NCBI RefSeq assembly: GCF_040581405.1
Contig: NZ_CP137157.1
Span: forward strand, 686,001 to 750,000
Length of the DNA: 64,000 nt
Source of the DNA: Komagataeibacter sucrofermentans DSM 15973
GTDB taxonomy: Bacteria; Pseudomonadota; Alphaproteobacteria; Acetobacterales; Acetobacteraceae
Reading direction: 5' to 3'
The notes under the pieces were generated by a model that saw only the letters and a program-made list of their open reading frames with translations, did no database searches and was not told the origin of the DNA. The position numbers were made by a program, and so were the translations under genes. Of this stretch, positions 14,301 to 49,368 are shown piece by piece. The stretch's first letter is position 1. The number at the start of each line of letters is the position of its first letter.

Positions 14301-14423
14301 GATTCGGTGCTGCACTATTGTCACCATCCGATTCAGGCGGTATCAGCAGCCTGACGGAGCGGTGCTCCGAGTCTGGCGGAACAGAGTCGTTTCGTCGGAC
14401 TGCTAGCGAATCCTGCGCAAGGC

Positions 14424-26585: not shown

Positions 26586-27898
26586 ATTTCAGTTCCTTCG
26601 CCAATGCAACGGAACTGAAGAAGCGTATCTGGTTTACCCTCGGTGCGCTGATTGTCTACCGGATTGGCACCTATATCCCCGTCCCTGGCGTCGATGCGAC
26701 GGTGATGGGGCAGCTTCTGGCCCGGCATCAGGGCGGTATCCTGGGTATGTTCGATATGTTCACGGGTGGTGCGCTGGGGCGCATGACCGTGTTCGCACTC
26801 AACATCATGCCCTATATCAGTGCCTCGATCATCGTGCAGCTCATGTCAGCGGCCATTCCCTCCCTTGAAGCCCTGAAGAAGGAAGGCGAGGGCGGGCGGC
26901 GCAAGCTCAATGAATATACCCGTTACCTGACGGTGGTCATTGCGCTGTTCCAGGCCTACGGCATCGCCATCGGGCTGGAGAACATGCACACGGAGGCGGG
27001 CTCGGCCGTTGTCTCGCCGGGGCTGTTCTTCATCGTCTCGTGCGTGCTGACGCTGGTGGGTGGCACCATGTTCCTGATGTGGCTTGGTGAGCAGATAACG
27101 TCGCGGGGGGTTGGTAACGGCATCTCGCTGATCATCTTCGCGGGTATCGTGGCAAACCTGCCCAATGCGCTCGCAAGCCTGTTCCAGCTTGGCTATACCG
27201 GGGCGCTTTCGCCGTTCTTCGTGCTGGTCTTCCTGGTGCTGGCCGCGGTGACCATTGCGTTTATCGTGTTCATGGAACTGGCACAGCGGCGTGTGGTGAT
27301 CCAGTACCCCAAGCGGCAGGTCGGCCAGCGCATGTTTGGCGGTGACTCGACGCATATGCCGCTGAAGGTGAACACCGCAGGCTCGATTCCGCCGATCTTC
27401 GCGTCATCGGTGCTGCTGATTCCCGTGACCATTGCGGGATTCGTCAATAACAGCTCGATGCCTGGCTGGCTGTCCTTTCTGGGGCAATCGCTGGGGCAGG
27501 GGCAGCCGCTCTACATGCTGTTCTATGCGGCGATGATCGTGTTCTTCTCGTATTTCTATGCGGCGGTGACATTCAACCCACAGGAAACGGCCGAGAACCT
27601 GCGCAAGCAGGGTGGGTTCGTGCCGGGGATCCGGCCTGGCGCCAATACGGCGGCGTTCTTTGACCGCATCCTGACGCGTATCACGACGATTGGCGCACTC
27701 TATCTTGTCGCTGTCTGCCTGTTGCCGCAGATCCTGATCAGCCATTACAACGTGCCGTTCTATTTTGGTGGTACGAGTCTGATCATTATCGTGACCGTGA
27801 CGATCGATACGGTGACACAGGTGCAGTCGCATCTGGTGGCGCACCAGTATCAGGGCCTCATGCGTCGCGGACGGGGCCGAAAGGGCAAAATGCGGTGA
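26549..27898 (+). CDS. secY: Preprotein translocase subunit SecY
   Basis: SecY (449 residues) is the ten-helix protein-conducting channel of the inner membrane. IWFTLGALIVYRIGTYIPVP is the first membrane segment, and GGILGMFDMFTGGAL and NIMPYISASIIVQLM form the plug and second-helix region. A later cytoplasmic loop has YPKRQVGQRMFGGDSTHMPL. The protein ends in a basic tail (RRGRGRKGKMR). AAAGGA at about 26536-26541 is the ribosome-binding site. Its stop overlaps the adk GTG start (GTGA). Confidence 0.98.
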   Translation: MASAAEQLAANLNFSSFANATELKKRIWFTLGALIVYRIGTYIPVPGVDATVMGQLLARHQGGILGMFDMFTGGALGRMTVFALNIMPYISASIIVQLMSAAIPSLEALKKEGEGGRRKLNEYTRYLTVVIALFQAYGIAIGLENMHTEAGSAVVSPGLFFIVSCVLTLVGGTMFLMWLGEQITSRGVGNGISLIIFAGIVANLPNALASLFQLGYTGALSPFFVLVFLVLAAVTIAFIVFMELAQRRVVIQYPKRQVGQRMFGGDSTHMPLKVNTAGSIPPIFASSVLLIPVTIAGFVNNSSMPGWLSFLGQSLGQGQPLYMLFYAAMIVFFSYFYAAVTFNPQETAENLRKQGGFVPGIRPGANTAAFFDRILTRITTIGALYLVAVCLLPQILISHYNVPFYFGGTSLIIIVTVTIDTVTQVQSHLVAHQYQGLMRRGRGRKGKMR

Positions 27899-45796: not shown

Positions 45797-45845
45797 CGTG
45801 GCGTTATGGGTCCACGCTACAGAACAGCGATATTACGGAGTGTGA

Positions 45846-46151
45846 ATGATGTCGGAAGACAAGGCAAAAAACATCGAGACCAAGGGCGAAGGCATGATCG
45901 ATGAAGGCATTGGCCGCCTGAAGGACGCCGCTGGCGGCCTTACGGGCAATGTGGGCATGCAGGCCGAAGGCAAGGTCGACCAGCTTTCGGGCATGGCGCG
46001 GCAGGAATTTGCCGATCTGTATGATGAAAGCGAGGGCAAGCTCGAGCGCGCCGTGACTTTCGTGCGCGAACGCCCGCTGTTTTCCCTCGGTATCGCGGCG
46101 GTGCTCGGCACCATCCTGGGGCTGATTTTCATCCCCCGTCGCAAGGGCTGA
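45846..46151 (+). CDS. CsbD/DUF883-like stress protein
   Basis: A 101-residue protein. The N-terminal half has the CsbD-like pattern KGEGMIDEGIGRLKDAAGGL with VGMQAEGKVDQLSG. The C-terminal half is a short amphipathic helix, then one membrane helix (RPLFSLGIAAVLGTILGLIF) and IPRRKG, as in DUF883. The fused layout suggests a membrane-anchored stress or stationary-phase protein. GGAG at 45837-45840 is spaced five bases from ATG 45846 and eight from ATG 45849; the latter may be the real start. Paralogue of the protein at 34229-34489. Confidence 0.8.
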   Translation: MMSEDKAKNIETKGEGMIDEGIGRLKDAAGGLTGNVGMQAEGKVDQLSGMARQEFADLYDESEGKLERAVTFVRERPLFSLGIAAVLGTILGLIFIPRRKG

Positions 46152-46160
46152 TCGCGGGTC

Positions 46161-46284
46161 GAGTCGTTTTTTTTCATTTTAAGGGACTCGATGAGTCCAC
46201 AGCATCTTGCACAACCGTGCATAAAAATGGTTTCCATCCTTCCAGAACATGAATCTGGTGCGAATCGGGCCTGAACCCCGATTC
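46161..46284. promoter_or_regulatory. GANTC cluster upstream of rnhB-ccrM
   Basis: Six GANTC sites (the CcrM target) occur in 124 bases: 46161-46165, 46185-46189, 46193-46197, 46251-46255, 46262-46266 and 46280-46284. By chance about one per 256 bases would be expected. Two of them form a GGACTC/GAGTCC dyad (46184-46198). In Caulobacter the ccrM promoter region contains GANTC sites whose methylation state controls transcription, so methylation feedback on this operon is likely. Confidence 0.7.
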
Positions 46285-46290
46285 GCACCA
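46256..46290. promoter_or_regulatory. 14-bp perfect inverted repeat before rnhB
   Basis: TGGTGCGAATCGGG (46256-46269) and CCCGATTCGCACCA (46277-46290) are perfect complements with a seven-base loop CCTGAAC. A GANTC site lies in each arm. The repeat ends 16 bases before the rnhB ATG, just ahead of its ribosome-binding site. It could be a regulator operator or a 5' UTR hairpin; there is no T-tract for termination. Confidence 0.6.
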
Positions 46291-46306
46291 TGACGGGAAG
46301 GACTGG

Positions 46307-46960
46307 ATGCCGGATTACACGCTTGAGCACGCCCATGGGGGACGGGTCGCCGGTGTCGATGAAGTCGGTCGCGGCCCGCTGGCGGGTCCGGTCGTGGCAG
46401 CGGCGGTCATGTTCCTCTCGGGCGTGCCAGGCAACCTGGCCGACACGCTTGATGATTCAAAAAAGCTCAGGCCAAAGGTCCGGCAGCAGCTTTACGATAC
46501 GCTGCATGACACCCCTGATGTCCTGATCGGGGTGGGCGCGGCCTCCGTGGCCGAAATCGAACAGCACAACATCCTGCGCGCGTCATGGATCGCCATGCAG
46601 CGCGCTGTCGGTCGCCTGCCGCAATGGCCCGAACTGGTTCTGGTTGATGGTAACGCCGCGCCCGATTTCGGGTGCCCGGCGCAATGCGTCGTGGGCGGCG
46701 ATGCGATCAGCCTGTCCATTGCCGCGGCCTCGGTCGTGGCCAAGGTCGTGCGCGACCGGGCCATGGAGCGCCTGGCCCGGCGCTGGCCCGCCTATGGCTG
46801 GGAGCGCAATGCCGGTTACGGCACGCCCATCCATCGCGCGGGCCTGATGGCCCACGGCGTCAGCCCCCACCACCGGGCGGCATTCGGCACGGTGCGCCGC
46901 ATCATGCAGGCTTCCGGTCCTTCTTCCTTACATTCAAGCGCGGAGCAGCCATCATGCTGA
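46307..46960 (+). CDS. rnhB: Ribonuclease HII
   Basis: RNase HII (217 residues) nicks DNA at single ribonucleotides and degrades RNA in RNA/DNA hybrids. The motif [20 protein letters not shown] carries the first catalytic Asp and Glu. [14 protein letters not shown], the third-motif [11 protein letters not shown] and [17 protein letters not shown] supply the rest. AAGGA precedes ATG 46307. It is followed after seven bases by ccrM, a pairing common in alphaproteobacteria. Confidence 0.96.
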
Positions 46961-46967
46961 ACAATTC

Positions 46968-48071
46968 ATGAGCGGTGCGGTAATGATGGAATTGCCCCTT
47001 GACCAGGTGCTGCGTGGCGACTGTGTCGAGATGATGCAGACCCTGCCCGCAGGGTCGATCGACTGCGTGTTCGCCGATCCGCCATACAACCTCCAGCTCA
47101 AGGGCGAGCTGCGTCGCCCGGATGACAGCGTGGTTGATGGCGTGGATGATGACTGGGACAAATTCGCCGACCTGCGGGCCTATGACGAATTCACCCGCGC
47201 CTGGCTGACCGAGGCGCGGCGCGTGCTGCGCAAGGATGGCACGATCTGGGTCATCGGCTCGTATCACAACATCTTCCGCATCGGGGCGATTTTGCAGGAT
47301 CTGGGGTTCTGGATTCTTAATGACGTGATCTGGCGCAAGTCCAACCCCATGCCCAACTTCCGTGGGCGGCGCTTCACCAACGCGCATGAAACGCTGATCT
47401 GGGCGGCGCGTGGGCCAGACAGCCGCTACCGCTTCAACTACCAGGCCATGAAGGCGCTCAATGACGATGTGCAGATGCGCTCGGACTGGTACCTGCCGCT
47501 CTGCACCGGCGGCGAGCGGCTGCGCAACGAACATGGCCTGAAGCTGCACCCCACCCAGAAGCCCGAAAGCCTGCTGCACCGCGTGCTCGTGGCCTCGACC
47601 AATGTAGATGACGTGGTGCTCGACCCCTTTACCGGCACCGGCACCACCACGGCCATGGCGCGCAGGCTGCGCCGCCGCTTTATTGGCATCGAGCGCCACC
47701 CGGACTATGCCGAGGCCGCGATTGGCCGCGCCCGGCGCGAAAAACCCGTGCCGCTGGACAGCGTGCTGACCACGCCCGCCCGGCGCGAAAGCCCACGCGT
47801 GCCCTTTGGCGTGCTGGTCGAGCGCGGCATGGTGCCTGCGGGCACCGTGCTCATGGACCGGCAGAAGCGCGTGCGCGCCACCGTCTCGCCCGATGGCACG
47901 CTGGTCAGCGGGCGGCACCGGGGCTCCATTCACAAGATGGGGGCGACACTGACCAACGCGCCCTCGTGCAATGGCTGGACGTTCTGGTATTTCGAGCACG
48001 AAGGTGAACTGGTGCAACTCGATACGCTGCGCAGCGAGATCCGGGCGGAGCAGGCAGCCGTCGCGTCCTGA
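46968..48071 (+). CDS. ccrM: Cell-cycle DNA adenine methyltransferase CcrM (GANTC)
   Basis: CcrM (367 residues) methylates adenine in GANTC after replication and in Caulobacter times cell-cycle transcription. Motif IV DPPY is at residues 37-40 and motif I FTGTG at 221-225, the beta-class order. The target-recognition region lies between. The C-terminal part from about residue 265 (VPFGVLVERGMVPAGTVLMD) is the extra DNA-binding domain typical of CcrM. ATG 46968 has no close ribosome-binding site and probably relies on coupling to upstream translation; ATG 46983 or 46986 are alternatives. Confidence 0.95.
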   Translation: MSGAVMMELPLDQVLRGDCVEMMQTLPAGSIDCVFADPPYNLQLKGELRRPDDSVVDGVDDDWDKFADLRAYDEFTRAWLTEARRVLRKDGTIWVIGSYHNIFRIGAILQDLGFWILNDVIWRKSNPMPNFRGRRFTNAHETLIWAARGPDSRYRFNYQAMKALNDDVQMRSDWYLPLCTGGERLRNEHGLKLHPTQKPESLLHRVLVASTNVDDVVLDPFTGTGTTTAMARRLRRRFIGIERHPDYAEAAIGRARREKPVPLDSVLTTPARRESPRVPFGVLVERGMVPAGTVLMDRQKRVRATVSPDGTLVSGRHRGSIHKMGATLTNAPSCNGWTFWYFEHEGELVQLDTLRSEIRAEQAAVAS

Positions 48072-48093: not shown

Positions 48094-49368
48094 ATGAACC
48101 GGTGCCCCGATCCTGACGGGCCGCATGGCCTGCCCAGCATGGAATGGAGCCCGGCCCGCCATGCCGCGCTGCTGACCGAGGATTACCTGTTCAGCCAGCT
48201 CATTCCCTATATCGGCAACAAGCGAAAGCTGCTCGGCCTGATCGCGCAGGCCATCGCGGCCACGGGCGAGGCGCCACCCCGCACGGACTTCATCGACCTG
48301 TTTGCAGGCACCGGCGTGGTATCAAGGCTGGCCAAGCAGCTTGGCTTTCGCGTGCTGTGCAATGACTGGGAGCCCTATAGCGAGCAGATCAACCGCTGCC
48401 ATGTGGCCCAGTCGCGCGCGCCGGTCTTTCATGGCGGGCGCAGTTATGAACAGGTCATGGCGGAACTCAACGCCCTGCCGCCCCTTGAGGGCTGGATCAC
48501 CCGCCACCTGTGCCCTGATGATGACGTGCATTATGACACCGCGCGCGACCGGATGTTCTACATGCGCAAGAACGGCATGCGCATTGACGCCATCCGCACG
48601 CAGGTTGCGCAGTGGGAACACGATGGCCTGCTTGATGCCGGACAGAAGGCCTGCCTGCTGGCCCCGCTGCTGTACAGCGCCAGCTACAACAGCAATACCA
48701 GCGGGCTGTTCAAGGGGTTTCATCGCGGCTGGGGCGGGCGCACGGGCACGGCGCTGTACCGCATCGCCGCCGACCTCATGCTCCGCCCGGCGGGTTTTAT
48801 TGATAACGGGCATGAGCACAGGGTGCTGCGCATGGATGCCCATGCCCTGGCCGCCAGCCTGGCGGGGGAGGTGGGGGAAGCGGCCATCGCCTATATCGAT
48901 CCACCCTACAATCAGCACCCCTATGGCGCCAATTACCACGTGCTCAACACCATTGCCCTGTGGGACAGTCCGCCCGTCGCGCCAAAGATTACCGGGCGCG
49001 ACAAGGCGGCCATACGCCAGGACTGGCGCACCGAGCGCCGCAGCCCCTACAACCACCGCAGGCAGGCGCTTGCGGCCTACCGGCACCTGCTCTCGGTGCT
49101 TGATACGCGCTGGATCGCCACGAGTTACAGCACCGATGGCTTCATTGCGCTCAAAGACATGCTGCGGGCCAATTGCGAGCGCGGCGCGGTGCAGGTCTTT
49201 ACCCGCCCCTACAAGCGCTATCGCGTCAGCCGCCAGCGCTATTCCGCACGCCCCATGACGCTGGAATTCGTCGTGCTGACCAACACCCGCCGCCCGCCAC
49301 AGCGCACGGCCGATGAGATCTGGCACGAAATCACCACTCTTGAGGCCAGCCTGAACAAGGTGCCCTGA
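48094..49368 (+). CDS. D12-class DNA adenine methyltransferase (alpha class)
   Basis: A 424-residue N6-adenine methyltransferase of the D12/Dam fold. The pocket motif YIGNKRKLL (39-47), the AdoMet-binding FIDLFAGTG (66-74) and the catalytic DPPYN (269-273) appear in alpha-class order, opposite to CcrM. It starts 22 bases after ccrM. No restriction endonuclease accompanies it, so it looks like an orphan methyltransferase. ATG 48094 was chosen over an in-frame start at 47971 that lies inside ccrM. Target sequence cannot be told from sequence alone. Confidence 0.85.
   Translation: MNRCPDPDGPHGLPSMEWSPARHAALLTEDYLFSQLIPYIGNKRKLLGLIAQAIAATGEAPPRTDFIDLFAGTGVVSRLAKQLGFRVLCNDWEPYSEQINRCHVAQSRAPVFHGGRSYEQVMAELNALPPLEGWITRHLCPDDDVHYDTARDRMFYMRKNGMRIDAIRTQVAQWEHDGLLDAGQKACLLAPLLYSASYNSNTSGLFKGFHRGWGGRTGTALYRIAADLMLRPAGFIDNGHEHRVLRMDAHALAASLAGEVGEAAIAYIDPPYNQHPYGANYHVLNTIALWDSPPVAPKITGRDKAAIRQDWRTERRSPYNHRRQALAAYRHLLSVLDTRWIATSYSTDGFIALKDMLRANCERGAVQVFTRPYKRYRVSRQRYSARPMTLEFVVLTNTRRPPQRTADEIWHEITTLEASLNKVP

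Follow-up and report, generated by a model that had tools for sequence, protein, structure and literature searches.

The window analysed here, a stretch of 64,000 nucleotides from Komagataeibacter sucrofermentans DSM 15973, carries the ribonuclease HII gene rnhB and the adenine methyltransferase gene ccrM, preceded by a 155-bp gap that follows a CsbD-like gene (Table 1). CcrM combines an N6_N4 methylase domain (PF01555, 3.7e-61) with a C-terminal RAMA domain (PF18755, 1.2e-17), and its closest solved structure is 6pbd_A, Modification methylase CcrMI (471.5 bits, residues 12-360 of 367). It scored 623.6 bits against the NCBIfam equivalog NF050803 (Caulobacter-type CcrM), below the cut-off of 830, so the gene is filed as a CcrM homologue and not as that equivalog. 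Five Komagataeibacter records (L001-L004, L051) have a CcrM whose match rounds to 100 percent, and in two of the five it is exactly that. From this homology, and from the depletion of GANTC in the window and the sampled genome, we infer that the enzyme methylates GANTC. The genome also contains a gene for GcrA, and a second adenine methylase lies alongside, as a D12-class adenine methyltransferase ORF (PF02086) at 48094-49368, directly 3' of ccrM.

Table 1. Genes and features of the rnhB-ccrM locus, in positions of the window
Feature	Position	Strand	Remarks
CsbD-like gene	45846-46151		gene preceding rnhB
GANTC site 1	46161..46165	+	CGAGTCG, fits YGAKTCK
Perfect 15-bp palindrome	46184..46198	undefined (.)	GANTC sites 2 (46185) and 3 (46193)
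Conserved block, possible core promoter	46203..46228	+	low confidence, from alignment
5' tract, outer helix	46229..46243	+	predicted pairing with rnhB ribosome site and start
GANTC site 4	46251..46255	+	
Inner hairpin, 14-bp stem, 7-nt loop	46256..46290	+	arms are sites 5 (46262) and 6 (46280), both CGANTCG
rnhB Shine-Dalgarno (46296-46302) and start codon	46294..46311	+	3' side of outer helix
rnhB, ribonuclease HII	46307-46960	+	PF01351 1.2e-36; NF000595 217.3 bits against a cut-off of 167
ccrM, adenine methyltransferase	46968-48071	+	aligned start 7 nt past rnhB stop

The genes rnhB and ccrM look like one unit, and the preliminary description, which had treated them as an operon, fits the spacing between the rnhB stop and the ccrM start; a simple pattern search found no Shine-Dalgarno-like tetramer at the latter. 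A location of ccrM near the terminus, which would fit late hemimethylation, was considered and dropped. The gene, at 0.733 Mb, is placed at about mid-arm of C1 (2.95 Mb) because of the GC skew, which in sampled stretches turns near the C1 ends and at ~1.1-1.5 Mb, and because of the position of mnmG at 2.87 Mb, despite the presence of dnaA at 1.96 Mb.

Six GANTC sites lie within 124 bp before rnhB (46161, 46185, 46193, 46251, 46262 and 46280), all of them where the preliminary description had placed them. GANTC is otherwise scarce. Shuffles of the window predict 217 copies and it has 72; a 400-kb sample of the same genome (20 stretches of 20 kb from 3.44 Mb, with 5000 bases read as N) has 394, or 0.985 per kb, where base composition predicts 1401. 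The density before rnhB is about fifty times the mean rate of the sampled genome, and even four GANTC within 124 bp occurred in none of the 20 sampled stretches. Masking ORFs of at least 100 aa gives a crude rate of 1.39 per kb for non-coding DNA; at this rate the 155-bp gap is expected to hold 0.215 sites, giving a Poisson probability of about 1e-7 for six or more. The earlier claim of a density above chance therefore stands against a background of about one site per kb, although the rate of one per 256 bp on which it was based is wrong and the six sites are not independent, since 46185/46193 and 46262/46280 form two palindromes, leaving about four independent units. Elsewhere in the window, five GANTC occur in 112 bp between rpoC and rpsL (14301-14412) and four in 99 bp within the secY coding sequence (27344-27442); the rpoC-rpsL gap was matched in 9 of 60 family genomes, its own included, and the matches L203, L204, L208 and L209 have 3-5 GANTC in some 35-170 bp nearby.

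Sites 2 and 3 are kept in all 17 aligned rows of the Komagataeibacter/Novacetimonas group, four of which (L013-L016) read GACTC and GATTC and have lost the palindrome. Site 4 is confined among Komagataeibacter to the window, L001-L004 and L051, and its alignment columns read GATTC in Gluconacetobacter rows. Sites 5 and 6 each occupy one arm of an inverted repeat that is perfect over 14 bp. A promoter scan returned no sigma-70-type promoter; in the conserved block listed as a possible core promoter, 46223-46228 aligns by eye with TATAAT of one Acetobacter (L054), with no good -35. The CtrA site TTAA-N7-TTAA was absent from the six upstream regions, of 80, that were examined, including the 260 bp of the window, whose upstream region holds one TTAA half.

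GANTC cluster in the family and the class

The CcrM scan of named genomes provided the best 80 of 292 loci, 79 of them with rnhB upstream; L074, with just 178 bp before ccrM, was dropped, and the final set comprised 80 loci, namely 79 relatives and the window. At least three GANTC are present in the 200 bp before rnhB in 66 of the 80 loci (relatives from the best 80 of 292), with a mean of 4.5, so the cluster is kept in the corresponding upstream regions of relatives. Seven control palindromic pentamers of like composition had means of 0.19-0.64 and reached three copies in 0-3 of the 80 loci. Among the aligned rows listed, GANTC positions are mostly constant inside a genus and different between genera. 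Over 260 bp, eleven deep family members have just 1-2 GANTC, and the Acetobacter MAG L041 lacks the site altogether. Of 360 upstream sites, 199 fit the GcrA-type extended motif YGAKTCK (PMC7987155) and 166 fit CGANTCG, compared with 99 and 36, respectively, of 460 sites in the background; the species in these counts are not independent. YGAKTCK fits three of the six sites in the window.

Across the class, CcrM was matched in 87 of 115 genomes, of which 84 were used, the window's genome, G010 and G110 (best match about 42 percent over some 240 residues) being left out. The ccrM starts were placed from the protein match and not from annotation; 83 of the 84 loci have 200 bp upstream (L201 has none), and one, L103, belongs to the window's family. 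These loci have a mean of 2.71 GANTC before ccrM, with at least two in 57 of 83, against 0.5 for control pentamers. An rnhB gene lies upstream in the same direction in 65 loci and was not found in 18. The 65 loci with rnhB average 3.0 GANTC before ccrM and 0.45 before rnhB, whereas the 80 Acetobacteraceae loci (relatives from the best 80 of 292) average 0.06 before ccrM and 4.5 before rnhB, in 200 bp each. In 51 of the 84 class loci (L104-L200 included), a GANTC lies no more than 14 nt after TTGAC (shuffles, mean 0.84, maximum 3), and TTGAC-N1-7-GANTC-N2-8-GANTCA fits 25 of 84; the TTGAC-GANTC arrangement occurs in just 6 of 80 family loci and is absent from the window.

The spacing of the two genes differs in parallel. 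Of the 80 family loci, 69 have the ccrM start at -4 to +8 nt from the rnhB stop (49 of them at -4 or -1), and the remaining 11 comprise five in which no start was found, five at -277 to -19 and one at +60. In the class sample the distance is at least 50 nt in 50 of 61 loci, 11-49 nt in eight and 10 nt or less in three. On these counts, the GANTC cluster is located between rnhB and ccrM in the class sample and before rnhB in Acetobacteraceae, in which ccrM overlaps or abuts rnhB. Our reading is that the control region in Acetobacteraceae has its place ahead of rnhB and that ccrM has come to depend on it; the direction in which the position changed in evolution is one we infer.

Leader structure ahead of rnhB

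The leader (46152-46330) folds far better than its shuffles (z -4.8). In 49 of 52 loci from Komagataeibacter, Novacetimonas, Gluconacetobacter and Acetobacter, the window included, GANTC lies in the left arm of the best inverted repeat, the exceptions being L014, L041 and L042. Komagataeibacter has the arm sequences GAATC/GATTC, Acetobacter GACTC/GAGTC. Over 37 distinct rows, six outer pairs are matched in 157 of 222 cells, a value equalled by none of 5000 within-group arm swaps, which ignore relatedness. Pairing of own against swapped arms was 0.762/0.701 in Komagataeibacter/Novacetimonas, 0.765/0.561 in Acetobacter and 0.417/0.400 in Gluconacetobacter, whose hairpin is no better than chance: own arms pair about as well as swapped ones, and 13-52 of 100 shuffles score as well as the real hairpin. 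Ten hairpin pairs were followed along an rnhB-ccrM tree of 49 rows. The pair is maintained by 15 inferred double changes and, as G-U, by 12 single changes, and a further 7 restore it, against 30 single changes that break it, 5 double changes that fail to keep it and 8 others. Because two of the sites are hairpin arms that change together, part of the GANTC conservation reflects structure. In rows of the Novacetimonas group and most of Gluconacetobacter (not L024 and L027), the second GANTC is lost and the stem is partly pairable and partly G-U. In many Acetobacter leaders (L026-L059), three GANTC could, by eye, form mutually exclusive, attenuator-like helices.

The two helices differ in how far they point to RNA. 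In the inner hairpin, G-T and A-C mismatches number 6 and 2 under a strand-neutral choice of stem and 9 and 7 in alignment A1; as they hardly differ, the inner stem taken by itself gives no indication of RNA. At the outer-helix ends in Acetobacter, sense-strand G-T mismatches outnumber A-C by 20 to 6, and in A1 by 48 to 4, the latter a biased count in that the fold was chosen with RNA energies. Mismatches in the outer helix thus favour a sense RNA, and those in the inner hairpin hardly do so.

The core of the outer helix is predicted to pair 46237-46243 with the Shine-Dalgarno sequence at 46296-46302. Permutations reached the real value in none of 2000 trials in Acetobacter (23 rows), 40 of 2000 in Komagataeibacter/Novacetimonas (14 rows) and 193 of 2000 in Gluconacetobacter (5 rows). 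A consensus fold of Komagataeibacter-Gluconacetobacter contains both helices, with a double change in just 2 of 20 pairs; that of Acetobacter contains the inner hairpin only, with double changes in 6 of 13 pairs, and the outer helix, missing from it, lies at varying places in that genus.

The predicted probability that the window's ribosome site is unpaired at 37 C is 0.003-0.03 for 5' ends up to 46236, and the site is predicted to be mostly free when the 5' end lies at 46240 (0.68) or 46246 (0.60). Access in real and shuffled leaders was 0.184 and 0.43 in Komagataeibacter/Novacetimonas (12 of 18 below 0.2) and 0.364 and 0.401 in Acetobacter, in which 11 of 24 leaders fall below 0.2 against 10 percent of shuffles. 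The values for Gluconacetobacter (0.286/0.301), Asaia (0.511/0.482), the Gluconobacter group (0.363/0.351) and deep lineages (0.475/0.421) are near equal, and the predicted clamp is therefore well supported only in the window's genus and in part of Acetobacter. By these predictions, the leader would mask the ribosome site of rnhB in Komagataeibacter and in roughly half of Acetobacter. An RNA thermometer was rejected, since the predicted unpaired probability rises only from 0.002 to 0.003, or from 0.022 to 0.030, between 30 and 37 C.

With leaders that sequester a ribosome site, such as RNA thermometers and autogenous leaders, this leader shares a Shine-Dalgarno sequence predicted to pair with an upstream tract, and paired changes that are evident in Acetobacter, weaker in Komagataeibacter/Novacetimonas and lacking in Gluconacetobacter. 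It differs from them in its small predicted change between 30 and 37 C, in a stem built around methylase targets and in having no Rfam counterpart: Rfam covariance models gave no match up to E 1 in 45800-46500. Among the 150 of 2909 first-look candidates scored in its own genome, no second copy was found at E 1 or below except its own mirror strand. The leader model R1 was found in 4 of 100 family genomes, its own included. On 53 loci outside its building set it gave 10 matches at E 1 or below, three of them below 0.01, nine at the rnhB start and one (L067) about 40 nt further upstream; the scan also matched the window itself, once per strand.

Control of rnhB and ccrM

CcrM timing plays a central part in the alphaproteobacterial cell cycle, and most of what is known about its control comes from Caulobacter. 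The ccrM promoter there has two GANTC that are hemimethylated at replication, a state linked to higher ccrM expression, and the comparison drawn in the preliminary description is backed by a review to this effect (PMC10073500). The control region described here likewise contains GANTC, and differs in having six sites before rnhB instead of two before ccrM, a structured leader and no TTAA-N7-TTAA CtrA site in the 260 bp upstream. With the GcrA/CcrM promoters ctrA P1 and mipZ it shares YGAKTCK sites and a GcrA gene in the genome. For Caulobacter promoters, a GANTC between -35 and -10 is associated with activation at 40-60 minutes, whereas those with sites outside are then at their lowest level (PMC4287350); the promoter in the window is a candidate from alignment. 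Sites become hemimethylated after passage of the fork, and GcrA binding is reported to depend on methylation (PMC3667746). An earlier count of GANTC upstream of cell-cycle genes in Alphaproteobacteria states that methylation control was not derivable (PMC2877005).

The reading favoured here, with a probability of roughly one half, is that transcription of rnhB and ccrM is timed by replication through the GANTC sites, probably with GcrA, and that an RNA clamp acts on rnhB and, by coupling, on CcrM. The gap before rnhB would be the control region of the unit, and its GANTC sites would be fully methylated before replication and hemimethylated once the fork passes. This state would be read, probably by GcrA with sigma-70 RNA polymerase, giving a burst of rnhB-ccrM transcription that would end when CcrM re-methylates the sites, which is the favoured sign of control. 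The leader RNA would keep translation of rnhB low; as ccrM starts where rnhB stops and would be translated in a coupled manner, the same clamp would also limit CcrM. The methylation autoregulation suggested in the preliminary description is upheld in part: the cluster, its conservation, the CcrM homologue and GcrA speak for it, the first two of these also passing two of the refuting conditions set there. That description had missed the use of two sites as hairpin arms and the position of the cluster before ccrM, not rnhB, in the class sample.

A further proposal, less likely than not, is that a cis-acting RNA outside Rfam clamps rnhB and sets the level of CcrM by coupling, so that the same DNA would serve as sensor and clamp; in its boldest form, CcrM would bind the hairpin of its own message. 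CcrM has been reported to open a bubble at its DNA site (PMC6787082).

The alternative that survives best, possible but doubtful, places control at the DNA level only, as methylation-sensitive transcription, with the hairpin a by-product of either a dyad operator or a quasi-palindrome symmetrised by templated replication errors. Templated correction can mimic paired changes. This alternative agrees with the location of site pairs 2/3 and 5/6 within palindromes, with Asaia, whose rows keep 4-5 GANTC with inverted repeats at chance level only, with most Gluconobacter rows, which have GANTC in a single arm, and with the nearly equal G-T and A-C mismatches of the inner hairpin. However, the arm sequences co-vary instead of holding one operator sequence, the outer helix has its excess of sense-strand G-T over A-C (in Acetobacter and in the biased A1 count), and L042, which has no GANTC arms, retains the outer helix and an inverted repeat equalled by 4 of 100 shuffles.

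Control at the RNA level only, in which the leader would be a translational regulator or mRNA stabiliser and GANTC would be frequent because it is self-complementary, is unlikely. It would account for the paired changes in hairpin and outer helix, and for the Novacetimonas-group and most Gluconacetobacter rows, in which the stem remains partly pairable without the second GANTC, but GANTC is far commoner than the seven self-complementary pentamers of the same composition, and GANTC clusters also occur without a long hairpin and, in the class sample, before ccrM. It is more improbable still that the hairpin is an opposite-strand transcription terminator, or an attenuator, and not a ribosome clamp. 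In its favour, a scan marked minus-strand 46290-46256 as resembling a terminator, and the three GANTC of many Acetobacter leaders could form alternative helices; against this, no T run follows the stem in the rnhB direction (by eye, in the aligned rows shown and in alignments A1 and A2), and the sole minus-strand ORF above 80 aa across the hairpin (45833-46336) is antisense to the CsbD-like gene and looks spurious. A chance cluster in a short gap is scarcely credible given the Poisson value and the clusters of relatives, even though GANTC is reported to be enriched between genes in Alphaproteobacteria generally (PMC3973325).

That methylation feeds back on ccrM is already a known idea. What these sequence comparisons add to the preliminary description is the contrast between the cluster before rnhB here and that before ccrM in the class sample, the hairpin with paired changes formed from sites 46262 and 46280, and the predicted cover of the ribosome site. 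No paper on ccrM with rnhB or ribonuclease HII was found among publications outside subscription; the match for ccrM, RNase HII and operon was on a Bacillus methylase (PMC9973331). The tie to ribonucleotide repair put forward in the preliminary description is suggested by gene order.

If the favoured reading is right, CcrM of acetic acid bacteria would be subject to self-control at two levels. As the methylation-rich control region stands upstream of rnhB, one gene further upstream, RNase HII would share the switch of CcrM in these organisms, and an RNA layer may have been added to the control of CcrM.
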